DNA of 64,000 nucleotides from Eubacteriaceae bacterium. GTDB lineage: Bacteria > Bacillota > Clostridia > Eubacteriales > Eubacteriaceae. Made by a program: the position numbers and the translations under genes. This document shows, in pieces, positions 49,241-64,000 of this stretch; the first letter of the stretch is position 1; every line of letters begins with the position of its first letter. The notes under the pieces are model-generated. The model searched no databases. It was given only the letters and a program-made list of their open reading frames with translations, and was not told the DNA's origin. The stretch is taken from assembly GCA_016650045.1 (NCBI GenBank), contig JAENWK010000004.1:1-64000 (forward strand), read 5' to 3'.

Positions 49241-50338
49241 TTAAGTGGCTACTTTTTCAGCGTCTTTTTTATCTGCGGGATCAATCTGCCACCGGATGTT
49301 TTTAATCAAATCATCCACATCGTCATGGACATAAATCTTTGTAGTTGTCTCGATGGAAGCATGGCCTAATAGTTTTTGGAGGGTAAATACATCGGTTCCT
49401 GATTTATAAAGAACTGTTCCATAAGTGTGACGGAGTTCGTGTGGTGCCAGAACCGGAATTTCCGGATGTGCAATTTTTAAATCTTCTTTAAATTTTTTAT
49501 AGTGATAATTTGCCCACACACGGGGTCCCATGATTTTATCACGCCTTGTTTTGAATAAATAATCATCCCTGTACATTCTGATATCGTCTTTCAAGAAATC
49601 ACAAAATACATCATCCAAAGGAATTGCTCTCATTGCTTTTTCACTCTTACCGGTTGTTTTCATCTTTGGGGTACCGGTGTCATCCGTGATCACTCGATGT
49701 AGGGTTAACAGCTTCTTGTGAAAATCAATATCCTTGGCAGGATTAAGACCGACTAACTCACCCTTCCTGATTCCAGTTTTGAGGATAATGAAGGCTCCTA
49801 ATCCCTCGGGGTGTGTTTTTGCATACTCCACAACTATATCGTACTCAGCAACGGTGTATGGGCGTTTTGGAGCTGTTGGCTTGCCTTTTGGCTGCTTAAT
49901 ATTAGCCATGGGGTTCTTAATGATAAAATCATTTTCAATGGCGGTTTCAAAAATGGCGTTAAGTGTGATCCGCAGCTTATCCACCATGGATTGTGATAAA
50001 TCAGCCTTTAATTTAAAAAACTGCTGGACGTCAATTGCCCGGATCATGCGGATATTGTAATCCCCAAAATAATCATTCAGGTGATCAATACAAAGTTTAT
50101 ATCCATAATAGGTGGGGCTGCTGACAACTTTTTCTTTGTAAATATTTAACCACTGATCCGCCCAGGATTTAAAAATTGTTTCGTCCCATTCTTGCTTTTG
50201 TCCAGTTGCAAGCTCCAGCTTATAAGCATCAATCTTTTCATTGCATTCTTTTATAGACTTACCGTAAAAGTTTTTCATGATCGGCTTCCCATCAGAGGTT
50301 TTACCAACGGTTATTCTAATCCTTTTTTTACTTGCCAT
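49241..50338 (-). CDS. int: Tyrosine recombinase/phage integrase
   Basis: LKTGIRKGELVGL; LAPHELRHTYGTVLYKSGTDVFTLQKLLGHASIETTTKIYVH. Confidence 0.95.
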   Translation of the reverse strand: MASKKRIRITVGKTSDGKPIMKNFYGKSIKECNEKIDAYKLELATGQKQEWDETIFKSWADQWLNIYKEKVVSSPTYYGYKLCIDHLNDYFGDYNIRMIRAIDVQQFFKLKADLSQSMVDKLRITLNAIFETAIENDFIIKNPMANIKQPKGKPTAPKRPYTVAEYDIVVEYAKTHPEGLGAFIILKTGIRKGELVGLNPAKDIDFHKKLLTLHRVITDDTGTPKMKTTGKSEKAMRAIPLDDVFCDFLKDDIRMYRDDYLFKTRRDKIMGPRVWANYHYKKFKEDLKIAHPEIPVLAPHELRHTYGTVLYKSGTDVFTLQKLLGHASIETTTKIYVHDDVDDLIKNIRWQIDPADKKDAEKVAT

Positions 50339-50413
50339 GTTTTTACTCCTTTCTGATTTTTTGTACAAAAATACCCGGTTGTAATTTCCGGGGTTGTTTG
50401 GTACAATATTGGG

Positions 50414-51119: not shown

Positions 51120-52064
51120 TTAATTCACCCCAAGAACTTTCCCGATTGTTTTTAAGTTATCAGATTCTCTTATCTTGATCGGTTTATATTTTTGATTGAG
51201 GCTAACAAGATAACATCCGTCCATGTCCCCAATCATCTTTTTTATGAAAGCTTCTCCATTAAGAATAAAAACTCCAATATTCCCCGACTCAATTTCTTTG
51301 GATCTTTGAATAAAAACAGTGTCACCTTCATGGAGCTGTGGTTCCATTGAATCTCCGGAAACACGAACTCCGAAATTACTTCCTTTAGGGATAAAATCAG
51401 AGGGGTATGGAATCATTTCAAAATCTTCACCGTCTAAAAACTGACCGGTCCCAGCTGATACCGGGAGAAGGTAAATAGGGTGTTCGGTGTAAGAAATTTC
51501 ATAAGATTGGGAATCGTCATTTATTTGTTTAGATTCATAATACAATAAGTTATTAATTGTTTTACTAACAAAGGTTTTTCCATCGCCTGAAAGTTTTTCG
51601 TAACTTTCAATTACTTTATTACTACTATCTTTCTCACTTAGAAGCGACATTATAATTGTCTCAGGTTTTTTTAGTTTTATATAATCAGAAACCAAATCAG
51701 TAAAATTAAATGTCTGATTAAAATTATTTTTACAAATAATGATTTGATCAAATTTTTCAATTTCTTCATAAGAATATCCAGTGTCTTCAAGTAAATCCAA
51801 CATTTCTGCTGAAAAATCGTGATATTCATCAATCATGTGATCGCTATATTCGTGTTCGCCCCACCCTAAGAGTAGAGCGGGGGTAGTATTTAATGCTTTG
51901 GCCAAAGGTTCCAATACTGAAGTAGGTAAGTTTTCGATATCATTGCTTTCATATCTGTAAATTGTGGATCTATCTTTTCCTAATATTTTTGCGATTTCAT
52001 CAACTGTAAGGTTTAATTCCTTACGTCTTTCTTTTATTTTGGCTCCAACATTCATTTTTGCCAC
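51120..52064 (-). CDS. CI-like repressor: XRE HTH + S24/LexA-like peptidase
   Basis: LTVDEIAKILGKDRSTIYRYE; PVSAGTGQFLDGEDFE; RVSGDSMEPQLHEGDTVFIQ. Confidence 0.93.
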   Translation of the reverse strand: MAKMNVGAKIKERRKELNLTVDEIAKILGKDRSTIYRYESNDIENLPTSVLEPLAKALNTTPALLLGWGEHEYSDHMIDEYHDFSAEMLDLLEDTGYSYEEIEKFDQIIICKNNFNQTFNFTDLVSDYIKLKKPETIIMSLLSEKDSSNKVIESYEKLSGDGKTFVSKTINNLLYYESKQINDDSQSYEISYTEHPIYLLPVSAGTGQFLDGEDFEMIPYPSDFIPKGSNFGVRVSGDSMEPQLHEGDTVFIQRSKEIESGNIGVFILNGEAFIKKMIGDMDGCYLVSLNQKYKPIKIRESDNLKTIGKVLGVN

Positions 52065-57925: not shown

Positions 57926-58387
57926 ATGAGCACAAATGAAGGAAGAGCATTCGATTGGGAAGATGAAGTTGAACAGGACGGACCGGAGTTTATTACAGTA
58001 CCGGAAGGCGATTATGATTTTGAAGTAGTGAAGTTTGAACGTGCACGCTATGCCGGAGGTAATAAACTTCCAGCATGTAACCAAGCAATCATTTACATAA
58101 AGGTTGAAACACCTGAAGGTCAAACTACCATTAAGCATAACTTATATTTACATACGATCACAGAGGGAATGATTTGCAGCTTTTTAACAGGTATTGGCCA
58201 ACGAAAGCATGGCGAAAAGGTAGTTCCGAGATGGGGAGAAGTTATGGGATCAACCGGCCGTTGTAGAGTTGGAATCCATTCATATGAAAAAGATGGTGAA
58301 ACACGAACCAATAATGAGATCAAGAAGTTTTATGAACCTGGTGAAAATACACCAAAGAACACAGGATTTACAGCCGGGAGTTTCTAA
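57926..58387 (+). CDS. DUF669-like phage protein
   Basis: FDWEDEVEQDGPEFITVPEGDYDFEVVKFERAR; follows the Sak4-like gene. Confidence 0.75.
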   Translation: MSTNEGRAFDWEDEVEQDGPEFITVPEGDYDFEVVKFERARYAGGNKLPACNQAIIYIKVETPEGQTTIKHNLYLHTITEGMICSFLTGIGQRKHGEKVVPRWGEVMGSTGRCRVGIHSYEKDGETRTNNEIKKFYEPGENTPKNTGFTAGSF

Positions 58388-59975: not shown

Positions 59976-60206
59976 TTGTTAGAAAGTCAAAAAATGCCCT
60001 TTATGGGTGGTTATGTAGAATTATTTATTACTGAAACGCCAAAGTTCAATGGAGTAGATGGATGGAAAATAAGAATATTAGCAAGAATAAGATCGAGTGG
60101 ATATAACGAAAAGTCCGAAGGTAAGAAAATCCTTATAGAAAAAGGGTTTACGACCAACGGACAAAAAGACAATGAGTTTTATAAATATATTGAGATTAAG
60201 ATTTAG
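59976..60206 (+). CDS. Small phage protein
   Basis: TTG start option, MLESQKMPFMGGYVELFITETP...; ORF track start 59946. Confidence 0.5.
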   Translation: MLESQKMPFMGGYVELFITETPKFNGVDGWKIRILARIRSSGYNEKSEGKKILIEKGFTTNGQKDNEFYKYIEIKI

Positions 60207-60933
60207 CTTTGTCTTCTTCAATATAAGTTGTGGCAAAATCAGCGTCCATATCTGCCGCAATAAATAGTGCGGCAGAACGAATAAAACGTTTCATATCATC
60301 AATATCTATTTGGGTATGCTTTTTAACAAAATGTGTTTCATCATTGCCAATCCAAGAAGCTAATTTAGCGAGGTTTTGAATTTTAGGAAAATCACTATAA
60401 CGATTTTGAATTGTATTATTTAAAGTTTCCTTTTCAATTTTCTCCTTACATTCTGGATCTTTAAGTATGGCGTAGGCTTTGATTATAAATTCAAGTGATT
60501 TTCTAAACCCAATGCCTGAAATTTGATCTAATCCTATGCATTCTGCTTCTAAAGATTGGTCGTAAATAATTTTAAACTCCGGAAACTTTTCATTCACTTC
60601 TTCAGGTAGGTCGTTTTTAAGTAGAGGCTTAAATGAATAAGGAATTTTTTTACCGACATTTGAGATTTCTAAATAACTTGGATTTGCCTTTTCAAATGGA
60701 AAGGCTTGAACAGAAAACTTACCGCAATCTTCTCTTGGGCATTGAATGAAAATACCTACAATATTATATGTATTTTCAAATAACATTGCTGTTTGAGTGT
60801 GAATGACAATCGGTTGGCCTGGATGACCACAATGAGGGCAATATTCATCTAAATTAATATTTGACCAACTAAAGTAATCATTTGTGTCTGGGTAACGAAA
60901 TTGAATTTTAGTTTGCAAAGATTTTTGCTCCAA
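60196..60933 (-). CDS. DUF4145-like protein with N-terminal zinc-ribbon-like CxxC pairs
   Basis: EYCPHCGHPG...IQCPREDCGKFSV; SLEFIIKAYAI, LAKLASWIGNDETHF; opposite strand to the phage operon. Confidence 0.65.
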   Translation of the reverse strand: MEQKSLQTKIQFRYPDTNDYFSWSNINLDEYCPHCGHPGQPIVIHTQTAMLFENTYNIVGIFIQCPREDCGKFSVQAFPFEKANPSYLEISNVGKKIPYSFKPLLKNDLPEEVNEKFPEFKIIYDQSLEAECIGLDQISGIGFRKSLEFIIKAYAILKDPECKEKIEKETLNNTIQNRYSDFPKIQNLAKLASWIGNDETHFVKKHTQIDIDDMKRFIRSAALFIAADMDADFATTYIEEDKAKS

Positions 60934-60988: not shown

Positions 60989-63208
60989 ATGGATAATCAA
61001 AATTTATTAGAGATATTAGAGCACATCGACCCAGGGACATTGGATTACACTGAATGGATGACCGTGGGAATGGCGCTTAAAGAGGAAGGATTCACCGCTT
61101 CAGACTGGAATGATTGGTCTGGGAAAGACGGCGGTCGGTTTAAAGCCGGGGAATGTTTCCGGAAGTGGGAAAGTTTTAAAGGAGCAGGTAAACCGGTCAC
61201 CGCTGGGACAATTGTGCAAATGGCAAAGGACCATGGCTGGACACCCTCAAAGTCATATCACGAACTGGATTGGGACGACATTATAGGGGCCAAAGATGAA
61301 CTGATCGTACTCGATAAGAATTGGGTCGAAGGCAAGGAAGTCAAAGAGCCAAATGAAACCGACTGGAAGCCAGTCGAGCAGCTGGTAAAGTATTTAGAAA
61401 CACTCTTCGAAGCATCTGAGAATGTCGGGTATGTATGCGACAGTTGGGAAAAAGACGGTCGATTCATGCCAACGAAAGGCGCCTGTGACCGCAGCGCCGG
61501 GGAGCTCATTCAAGAATTAAATAAGTGCAAGGGAGACATTGGGGCAGTCCTGGGAGACTATAAAGAAGAAGTCGGGGCGTGGATCCGCTTCAACCCCCTG
61601 GATGGTAAGGGCGTAAAAAATGAAAATGTGACGGATTTCAAGTATGCATTGGTCGAATCTGATGTCATGGCCATAGATCAACAGAATGCCATCATCAGAG
61701 AATTGGAATTACCGGTGGCGTGCCTGGTGCATTCCGGAAAGAAAAGTCTTCATGCCATCGTTAAAATAGATGCTGCCAGTTATGATGAGTACCGAAAACG
61801 AGTTGATTATCTTTATACGGTATGCCAGAAAAACGGCCTCAAGGTAGACAGCCAGAACCGTAATCCTTCACGGCTGAGTCGAATGCCAGGGGTTATGCGT
61901 AATGGCCAGAAACAGTTTTTAATTGATACCAATATAGGAAAAGACTCCTGGAAGGAATGGCAGGAGTGGATTGAGTCCATAAATGATGATCTGCCGGAGC
62001 CTGAATCATTGGACGGGATCTGGGACAATCTTCCCGACCTGGCACCACCACTGATCCATAATGTTCTCAGGCAAGGGCATAAGATGATGATCGCCGGACC
62101 TTCTAAGGCCGGTAAGTCATTTGCCCTTATCGAGTTATGTTGTGCCATTGCTGAAGGTAAGAAGTGGCTTGATTGGGATTGTGCCCAGGGAAAGATCATG
62201 TACGTCAATTTAGAACTGGATCGGGCATCATGCCTGCATCGTTTCAAGGATGTTTACACCGCCATGGACTGGGAGCCAAAGAGCCTGGCTAATATTGATA
62301 TTTGGAATTTAAGAGGGAAATCAGTACCAATGGATAAGCTGGCACCAAAACTCATCAGACGGGCAATTAAGAAGAATTACATTGCCATTGTCATAGATCC
62401 CATTTATAAGGTAATCACCGGTGATGAGAATTCAGCGGATCAAATGGCTAATTTCTGTAATCAATTTGACCGGGTATGTACCGAGCTGGGAGCAGCCGTC
62501 ATTTACTGCCATCATCACAGTAAGGGTGGCCAGGGAGGTAAAAAGTCCATGGATAGGGCATCAGGTTCAGGGGTATTTGCCAGGGATCCGGACGTACTTA
62601 TGGATCTCATTGAACTGGAATTAACTGATAAATTAATCCTTAATGAAGAGAATAAAGCAGCTTGTCTTGCGTGTGAAACTATCCTCAAAAATCATATTCC
62701 TGACTACAAAGATGAAGTGTCTCAAGATGATTTATGCAGCGAAAAAGCAATGCTTGAGATCTGTAATTCACTGTTAAATATGCCTCAAAACAAAGAACTT
62801 ATGACTGCTATTGAAGCGGCTAAAAAGAATATTCAAGGCAGATCGGCATGGAGAATTGAGGGTACATTACGAGAGTTTCCGAAGTTCCCGCCAGTCAATT
62901 TGTGGTTCGATTATCCACGGCATGTTGTTGATAATGGGGCCCTGAAAGACGTCGGATTTGATGGTGATAAAGCACCATGGCAGAAGAATTTCCCTAACAA
63001 AAAGACCAATGAAGAACGCAAGGATGACCGAATGGATTCACTGGATACCGCCATTAAATGTTGTTCCTTTGACGGAAATGTGACAGTTACCATGCTTGCT
63101 GAGTACCTGGGAACGGTTGAAAAAACAGTCAGACGACGAATAAAAGAGCATCCAGGGTACGAAATAGTTCAAGGCGAAATTAGGGACAAAGTCGAAGAAA
63201 GTCCCTGA
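60989..63208 (+). CDS. Phage primase/helicase-like protein (PriCT-2-like + RepA-like AAA)
   Basis: LDYTEWMTVGMALKEEGFTASDWNDWS; MIAGPSKAGKSFALIELCCAIAEGKKWLDW; IVIDPIYKV; YCHHHSKGGQGGKKSMDRASGSGVFARDPD. Confidence 0.88.
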   Translation: MDNQNLLEILEHIDPGTLDYTEWMTVGMALKEEGFTASDWNDWSGKDGGRFKAGECFRKWESFKGAGKPVTAGTIVQMAKDHGWTPSKSYHELDWDDIIGAKDELIVLDKNWVEGKEVKEPNETDWKPVEQLVKYLETLFEASENVGYVCDSWEKDGRFMPTKGACDRSAGELIQELNKCKGDIGAVLGDYKEEVGAWIRFNPLDGKGVKNENVTDFKYALVESDVMAIDQQNAIIRELELPVACLVHSGKKSLHAIVKIDAASYDEYRKRVDYLYTVCQKNGLKVDSQNRNPSRLSRMPGVMRNGQKQFLIDTNIGKDSWKEWQEWIESINDDLPEPESLDGIWDNLPDLAPPLIHNVLRQGHKMMIAGPSKAGKSFALIELCCAIAEGKKWLDWDCAQGKIMYVNLELDRASCLHRFKDVYTAMDWEPKSLANIDIWNLRGKSVPMDKLAPKLIRRAIKKNYIAIVIDPIYKVITGDENSADQMANFCNQFDRVCTELGAAVIYCHHHSKGGQGGKKSMDRASGSGVFARDPDVLMDLIELELTDKLILNEENKAACLACETILKNHIPDYKDEVSQDDLCSEKAMLEICNSLLNMPQNKELMTAIEAAKKNIQGRSAWRIEGTLREFPKFPPVNLWFDYPRHVVDNGALKDVGFDGDKAPWQKNFPNKKTNEERKDDRMDSLDTAIKCCSFDGNVTVTMLAEYLGTVEKTVRRRIKEHPGYEIVQGEIRDKVEESP

Positions 63209-63430
63209 TGTCTTTTAGGGACAGTTGGGACAATCACCGACTTTGTCCCTAAAAGTAAGAAAAGGGACAATCACGGGACAATTACCGACTTTGTCCCTTA
63301 GGGACAGGGACAGGGACAATGTATACTAAAGTATAGTAAATGTCCCTGTCCCAAACTTCATAGGGGGAACAGAGGAACAGGGTGCTTATGCTGCGCCCCT
63401 GTAACCCTCGGTCCCCTATCCCATGAAGAC
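63183..63430. repeat. GGGACA/TGTCCC repeat cluster with nested inverted repeats; candidate replication origin
   Basis: 8 GGGACA and 4 TGTCCC hexamers within 63183-63352; perfect 12-bp inverted repeats 63212-63223/63244-63255 and 63307-63318/63341-63352; imperfect large hairpin 63356-63428. Confidence 0.8.
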
Positions 63431-63484
63431 GCGAATTAAAAAATTAAAAAAATAAAAAAAAGAACTTTAACGAGGTAAAGCGAA

Positions 63485-63646
63485 ATGAAATTAGTAAAAA
63501 AATATAGATGCACAAGAAAATGTCCGGAACTTGATTTTGATAATCATAATCATTGTTATACATGGTTCCCAGATCAGTGGTGTAATGCATTCGATTGTTG
63601 CCCCACTGGAAATACTCCACAATGGGAGCTTGTCAATGAAGACTGA
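63485..63646 (+). CDS. 53-aa Cys-rich phage protein
   Basis: MKLVKKYRCTRKCPELDFDNHNHCYTWFPDQWCNAFDCCPTGNTPQWELVNED*; below the ORF-track cutoff. Confidence 0.55.
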   Translation: MKLVKKYRCTRKCPELDFDNHNHCYTWFPDQWCNAFDCCPTGNTPQWELVNED

Positions 63647-64000
63647 ATTCTTCATGCCAATGAAGCCGCCGACTATGACCCATCAGCAGAAAAGGGTGAG
63701 CGTGAAAAACAGTAAGCCAAACTTTTATGAGGATGATAAACTCAAGGCCGTCAGAGCAAATCTGGAAGCGCACCTGGCAAGGCATGTTCCGGAGGTAAAA
63801 TATACCGGTGCTGTCAGACTGAAAACGAAATGGTGTTTTCCCATAACAGGTAAACATAAAGACGGGGAATGGAAAAAGACGAAACCCGACACGGATAACA
63901 TGATCAAGATGTTTAAAGACGTCTGCACCGGGTTAGGGTACTGGACCGATGATGCACTGGTTACTTCAGACATTATCGAAAAGTTCTGGGCGGAGATCCC
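63636..64000 (+). CDS. rusA: RusA-family Holliday junction resolvase, 3' end outside the window
   Basis: MKTEFFMPMKPPTMTHQQKRV...KTKPDTDNMIKMFKDVCTGLGYWTDDALVTSDIIEKFWAEI; the DxDN-type motif is typical of RusA. Confidence 0.88.
   Translation, partial: MKTEFFMPMKPPTMTHQQKRVSVKNSKPNFYEDDKLKAVRANLEAHLARHVPEVKYTGAVRLKTKWCFPITGKHKDGEWKKTKPDTDNMIKMFKDVCTGLGYWTDDALVTSDIIEKFWAEI

Follow-up and report, generated by a model that had tools for sequence, protein, structure and literature searches.

A 64,000-nucleotide stretch of a contig from a Eubacteriaceae bacterium (the window) carries, directly after a gene for a 739-amino-acid primase-helicase protein, a dense repeat region that includes an AT-rich palindrome and ends in a bulged hairpin. 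We consider it highly probable that this region (63182-63428) is the replication origin of a prophage and that it is used by the protein encoded immediately upstream. The core of this model, namely origin function together with recognition of the repeats (iterons) by the C-terminal winged helix-turn-helix (wHTH) domain of that protein, is held with still greater confidence. Across relatives, changes in the repeats go together with changes at a few amino acids in the primase, which makes an origin-recognition code readable from sequence. The features of the region are as follows.

60989-63208, + strand: primase-helicase-initiator gene, 739 amino acids, comprising PriCT_2, AEP-type primase, AAA_25/RepA-like RecA-fold helicase and C-terminal wHTH
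63116-63151, + strand: wHTH recognition helix VEKTVRRRIKEH, residues 710-721, with putative specificity residues K712 and R716 (from the modelled helix 711-720 and the strongest helix-iteron associations)
63182-63194, + strand: first iteron AGGGACAAAGTCG, within the last codons of the primase gene, encoding RDKV of ...IRDKVEESP*
63183-63352, unstranded: iteron array of 8 GGGACA and 4 TGTCCC in 170 bp (from sequence)
63183, 63218, 63227, 63264, 63275, 63301, 63307 and 63313: GGGACA starts
63244, 63292, 63341 and 63347: TGTCCC starts
63227-63250 and 63275-63298: two copies of the 24-bp unit GGGACAAT(C/T)ACCGACTTTGTCCCT
63212-63223/63244-63255 and 63307-63318/63341-63352: perfect 12-bp inverted repeats
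63307-63352, unstranded: inverted double iterons either side of the AT-rich palindrome, with the same layout in the related locus L060, where GGGAAA replaces GGGACA
63319-63340, unstranded: AT-rich palindrome ATGTATACTAAAGTATAGTAAA (TATACT-AA-AGTATA, inside the second inverted repeat), putative duplex-unwinding element
63356-63428, + strand: bulged hairpin CTTCATAGGGGG...CCCCTATCCCATGAAG, subtype B, putative ssi-like priming site (from a subtype model match and covariation)

The repeat array and its place in relatives

An earlier reading of the letters alone (the sequence-only reading) had listed 12 hexamers in about 170 bp, a recurring longer unit, two perfect 12-bp inverted repeats and a further copy in the last codons of the primase gene, and all of these are present. 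The count of 12 compares with a mean of 0.30 and a maximum of 3 when the 256-bp stretch is shuffled 2000 times with dinucleotides preserved; across these shuffles the commonest hexamer of any kind reached at most 5 copies. The whole window holds 30 copies of the hexamer, only 18 of them outside the cluster, and close triples of GGGACA occur here alone in the 2.23-Mb assembly. The repeat region has a folding z of -10.5. The same reading had described nested cruciforms; the inverted repeats are real, and for the most part they are iterons in inverted orientation, not cruciforms in their own right, the second pair flanking the AT-rich palindrome in a conserved layout. Its second hairpin and the A/T tract that follows are also there, although the hairpin, which had been counted as part of the repeat region, is a separate conserved and covarying element.

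Related loci were collected from 47 viral contigs, 80 genome contigs, genomes of the phylum and nine phage records, and include Bacillus phage BCJA1c as well as Paenibacillus, Streptococcus and gut clostridial phages. For the comparison of repeat density, 131 loci (some of them duplicates) with at least 450 bp after the primase gene were used, and in 115 of them 8-mer repeats reach their locus-wide maximum density at the 3′ end of the primase gene. Loss of the array from relatives with the same replication genes had been named as an outcome that would speak against an origin; the opposite was found, with an array at the same place in nearly all of them. What the comparison of the interval preserves is the position of the array and not the sequence of its repeats, which differ by lineage (GGGACA, AGGGAAA, ACGCAAA, GTGTCAAA, CGGGGAAG, ACTTCC, GGTAATTACC and others). 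Class-specific iteron cores number 16-21 per kb after the primase gene versus 0.4-0.8 per kb elsewhere. Additionally, the 30 nt preceding the hairpin average 72-75% A+T across 122 loci, and TATATA or ATATAT is found within 70 nt before the hairpin in 70 of these 122, compared with 4% of coding windows. The region accordingly shows the traits of iteron-type origins, with short repeats above chance beside an initiator gene and an adjoining AT-rich element, and the proposal of a phage replication origin, already made in the sequence-only reading, is supported.

An iteron copy inside the gene at the primase 3′ end is seen in 9 of 26 loci of the GGGACA class and in other loci too. Being embedded in the final codons, the iteron dictates the C-terminal tail of the protein (RDKVEESP* in the window; GKKT* from GGGAAAAAAACATAA). 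Iterons within the final codons also occur at the 3′ ends of L014, L034 and L069.

The proposed initiator protein and its recognition code

The 739-amino-acid protein matches Pfam PriCT_2 (residues 8-79) and AAA_25 (353-515), and phrog_2597 ‘DNA primase’ over its full length. Its sole PDB match by sequence, in a family alignment search, is RSF1010 RepA (1g8y, E 6e-7), and RSF1010 RepA also gives the best PDB fold matches of an AlphaFold model of the whole protein (mean pLDDT 81, pTM 0.48), in which, given this pTM, the domains are reliable and their arrangement is not. A separate model of residues 107-344 (pLDDT 90) matches the AEP domain of cyanophage S-2L PrimPol and RSF1010 RepB′ (3H20 and 3H25, the latter RepB′ complexed with initiator DNA), and E223/D225 and S253-x-H255 of this domain are invariant in 70 sequences. 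The C-terminus is modelled as a winged helix, with helices at 700-707 and 711-720 and wing strands at 724-727/730-733.

Iteron motifs follow the recognition helix of this domain. Among 97 loci, motif similarity rises with the identity of the 12-residue helix (r 0.62); the partial correlation given catalytic identity is likewise 0.62, with 0 of 2000 permutations as high, while catalytic identity given the helix is uninformative (-0.05). When motifs were aligned blind to the proteins before a position-wise association test, the strongest associations fell at helix positions 3 and 7 (K712 and R716 in the window), with z about 10-12. A rule was then fixed before new loci were fetched: K3 with R7 for GGGACA, K3 with N, S or T at position 7 for GGGAAA, D3 with R7 for CGCAAA, and N3 for GTCAAA. 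The test set comprised 81 new loci, none of them near-duplicates of the first set. K3/R6/R7 (KTxRR) helices were accompanied by GGACA in 17 of 17 cases, whereas the 19 loci with K3/[RK]6/[NST]7 helices had GGAAA in 16, were undecided in 3 and had GGACA in none (Fisher 1e-10; 3e-6 in a thinned set). Counting strictly downstream of the stop codon gave 17:0 versus 0:16 (p 9e-10). The N3 rule holds in most cases and not in all, since GTCAAA counts in the five new N3 loci were 17, 12, 7, 3 and 1, against a median of 0 in other loci. The 81 loci offered no case for the D3 rule. A further pairing, Arg3/Asp7 with CGGG(G/A)AAG, was dropped as a claim on account of its partial fit in the new loci: L248 agrees, and L190, L206 and L242 show GGGAAA. 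In these three loci the helix is SERTARDRIKEH, while the related SERTVRDRIKEH pairs with CGGGGAAG; the difference may depend on position 5 or on some other residue.

The association recurs independently of ancestry. A tree built from the catalytic part alone (residues 1-540, wHTH excluded, 109 rows) implies 19 changes of the position-7 class, of which supported branches force at least 14, and in 10 of the 10 independent pairs the iterons switch together with the class (sign test 0.002). For example, the loci of Streptococcus phages Javan17 (L143) and Javan161 (L146) have catalytic parts that are 92% identical and wHTH domains that are 41% identical, and they also differ in iterons and hairpins. 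This pattern is as expected of domain exchange, and the pair may represent a natural swap of the specificity module. A still finer contrast is that of the window and L060, whose near-identical helices (VEKTVRRRIKEH/VEKTVRNRIKEH) differ solely by R or N at position 7, and which carry 12 GGGACA and 11 GGGAAA respectively in the same origin layout. Recognition of the iterons by the wHTH is thus strongly supported as regards specificity, through coevolution, with binding itself presumed. The sequence-only reading had named the 60989-63208 protein as a likely binding partner, and the helix-repeat coevolution, including the held-out prediction, argues in its favor. Since helix and iteron have switched repeatedly, these loci offer a naturally occurring series in which to study the divergence of initiators and origins into separate cognate pairs.

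The bulged hairpin

Downstream of the AT-rich element, 69-488 bp after the stop codon, a single hairpin per locus recurs with a common architecture. Above the basal stem GTCAnn/nnTGAC come a bulge of 4-5 nt in the 3′ arm, the pairing GGGG/CCCC, and then additional small bulges with a long inner stem. The window hairpin has a folding z of -2.7. Of 201 loci, at least 121, training members included, have a + strand match to a covariance model of the hairpin (R1), with scores far above those on the - strand. The 122-locus set used above consists of these 121 matches and the window, added by hand, and is a lower bound, as a few near-duplicate loci stand outside it, among them L092 and L206, which also match. 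Among 60 matches, 19 of 22 pairs have changes on both sides versus 7.6 in shuffles, and sliding the pairing partner abolishes the pairing; the alignment was fitted to the structure, and an unfitted subset (A3) agrees. A plain MAFFT alignment of 50 hairpins (A2) was set aside, its stems being misaligned and its consensus fold poor, in favor of a uniform subset for which the structure was named. Across 398 genomes of the phylum R1 matches in five, and in 4 of these 5 just after this primase; the match in G270 is borderline (E 9e-4), and that locus starts in a gene that by eye looks of HPr-kinase type.

Because R1 finds the window hairpin weakly, a subtype model (R2) was built, solely from streptococcal phages. 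It places the hairpin at 63354-63432 (+) with 31.5 bits and E 7e-5. A regular expression detects subtype B in 15 loci from two distant phage groups, and every one of them combines a K3/R6/R7 helix with GGGACA iterons. In the stems of this subtype lie iteron-like GGAACA/TGTAACC half-sites, as seen in the window, L143, L145 and L156-L183, and the restriction of this subtype to GGGACA-class origins (15 of 15) suggests that the initiator may also contact the hairpin stem. The stems of many GGGAAA-class origins hold GGGGAAAG/CTTCCCC. A search against Rfam returned nothing credible for the window stretch and no match for six relatives.

Proposed mechanism, alternatives and related systems

Each step of the mechanism that we propose is supplied by the RSF1010 scheme, where RepC sits on iterons, RepA unwinds and RepB′ primes at exposed ssi stem-loops (PMC4234260, PMC4538821). 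The C-terminal winged helix would bind the GGGACA iterons, whose variable bases would be read by Lys712 and Arg716, a specificity to which coevolution points. The crowded inverted iterons around the AT-rich palindrome, whose layout is observed, would nucleate melting, and the RepA-like helicase domain of the same polypeptide, recognizable by its fold, would load on the bubble. Unwinding would expose the hairpin as single-stranded DNA, and this conserved, covarying structure could serve as the first priming site of the AEP primase domain, a role for which we put the chances at about even. Overall, the prophage would be an RSF1010-like replicon with RepA, RepB′ and RepC functions in one protein. 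Whether this extends to a widespread Bacillota family of one-protein RSF1010-like phage replicons, in which helix and iterons repeatedly switch together (by R716/N or by domain exchange) and a cognate hairpin is where the primase starts, is in our judgement equally balanced.

There are other possible explanations for parts of this arrangement. The origin may be as proposed while the hairpin is a site of initiator assembly or handcuffing, or an RNA or transcription element of the downstream genes; this is a serious possibility, to which we give somewhat less than an even chance. The iteron-like sequences in the stems, GGAACA/TGTAACC in the GGGACA class and GGGGAAAG/CTTCCCC in many of the GGGAAA class, indicate that the protein may bind the duplex form, and the hairpin sits between two genes of the same direction. 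On the other hand, both a terminator-like site and an Rfam match are lacking (the interval 62800-63800 holds no terminator- or promoter-like sites), the hairpin is essentially confined to this primase, and the conservation of its 3′-side bulges, together with a strong preference for the + strand, points to a specific single-strand structure.

It is improbable that the iterons are instead an autoregulatory or incompatibility array, an operator or sequestration site for the primase with the true origin elsewhere. Any binding site would produce a helix-iteron code, and one iteron lies within the 3′ end of the gene itself; yet the array stands at the gene's 3′ end and not at a promoter, with an AT-rich element and a conserved hairpin adjoining it. 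Moreover, the iterons bound by the SaPI and SCCmec initiators lie immediately after the initiators' own genes (PMC7581432). A rolling-circle origin nicked at the hairpin is very improbable. A conserved stem-loop beside an initiator gene was formerly argued to indicate this for pRN1 (PMC4234260), but here a Pfam search finds no nickase domain in the 739-amino-acid protein, which has primase and hexameric-helicase-type domains, and iterons and an AT-rich element are present. Chance or low-complexity repeats without function, for which solely the general frequency of repeats in phages speaks, are hardly credible in view of the shuffle test, the positional conservation and the coevolution.

Several observations count against the proposed origin model. 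In L087, L111 and L129 the primase is present and clear iterons downstream are weak or lacking; their origins may have moved or decayed. Coevolution would fit as well with an array whose only effect is to repress or sequester the protein. Roughly 75 of the 201 loci lack an R1 match, several of them having other hairpins by eye, and R1 gives the window hairpin 10.9 bits, below two iteron palindromes. The fold matches of the AEP domain are moderate (E 6e-7 to 2e-5, TM about 0.5), the pTM of the whole-protein model is 0.48, and RSF1010 has two ssi sites (ssiA/ssiB) where we find one hairpin.

The likeness to the oriV of RSF1010 (IncQ) lies in the iterons, the hairpin(s), the RepA-type helicase (by sequence and fold) and a predicted RepB′-type AEP primase (by fold). 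RSF1010, however, is a plasmid with three Rep proteins including RepC, whereas here a single 739-amino-acid protein with a C-terminal wHTH is found in temperate phages mainly of Bacillota. pRN1 ORF904 and phage BIP-1 similarly combine AEP primase, helicase and C-terminal wHTH in one protein, with an origin stem-loop directly downstream of the gene whose structure is kept while its sequence changes (PMC4234260). ORF904 differs in its SF3 helicase, in place of which Pfam and fold matching find a RecA-fold AAA_25 domain of RepA type here, and iterons were not identified in pRN1, whereas here they come with a readable code. The C-terminal domain of the SaPI Rep and SCCmec Cch2 initiator-helicases binds short iterons just downstream of their own genes (PMC7581432), and P4 alpha is a one-protein primase-helicase whose winged helix binds origin repeats (PMC4234260). 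These systems use other helicase families (DUF927, D5/Primase_Cterm), neither of which is found by Pfam search of our protein, and P4 a TOPRIM primase; the text consulted on them does not mention a conserved bulged hairpin of this kind (PMC7581432, PMC4234260). The downstream position of the ori is common to SaPI and the present case, C-terminal specificity being suggested here by coevolution. Among Gram-positive phages, origin repeats are bound by the phage's own initiator in lactococcal TP901-1 (ORF13) and Tuc2009 (Rep2009), with the difference that the origin is inside the initiator gene and the initiator is of another type, without a primase-helicase fusion (PMC8965321). Lactococcal phage ori clones give phage-encoded resistance (PMC8965321).

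Repeat origins beside or within phage initiator genes were therefore already known, including those of lactococcal phages (PMC8965321). An earlier account of the origin, hairpin or code of this primase family was not found in a literature search in which subscription papers were mostly not searchable, so that priority is uncertain. For a very common phage replication module, the analysis assigns an origin and pairs it with its initiator through a code testable with one amino-acid change. It also connects the primase-helicase fusions of phages with RSF1010, a system that has been studied well. If true, the helix code would predict origin specificity, prophage compatibility and origin-decoy effects from sequence.

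The window covers the left part of the prophage, and the contig ends at 65219. The repressor is followed by a rightward replication block of an SbcC-like ATPase, a Sak4-like annealing protein, a ResIII-type helicase, the 739-amino-acid primase and a RusA resolvase.

49241-50368, - strand: integrase
51120-52064, - strand: S24/HTH repressor
63645-64000, + strand: RusA-like resolvase downstream of the origin, which ends the intergenic origin stretch (Pfam RusA 5e-23, phrog_140)

Within the block, 57926-58387 encodes a phrog_2698 protein, of function not annotated, after the Sak4-like protein and ahead of the helicase. In the gap from the helicase gene to the primase gene, both rightward, a leftward gene (60196-60933, - strand; phrog_1305 ‘DNA binding protein’) opposes the direction of the block.
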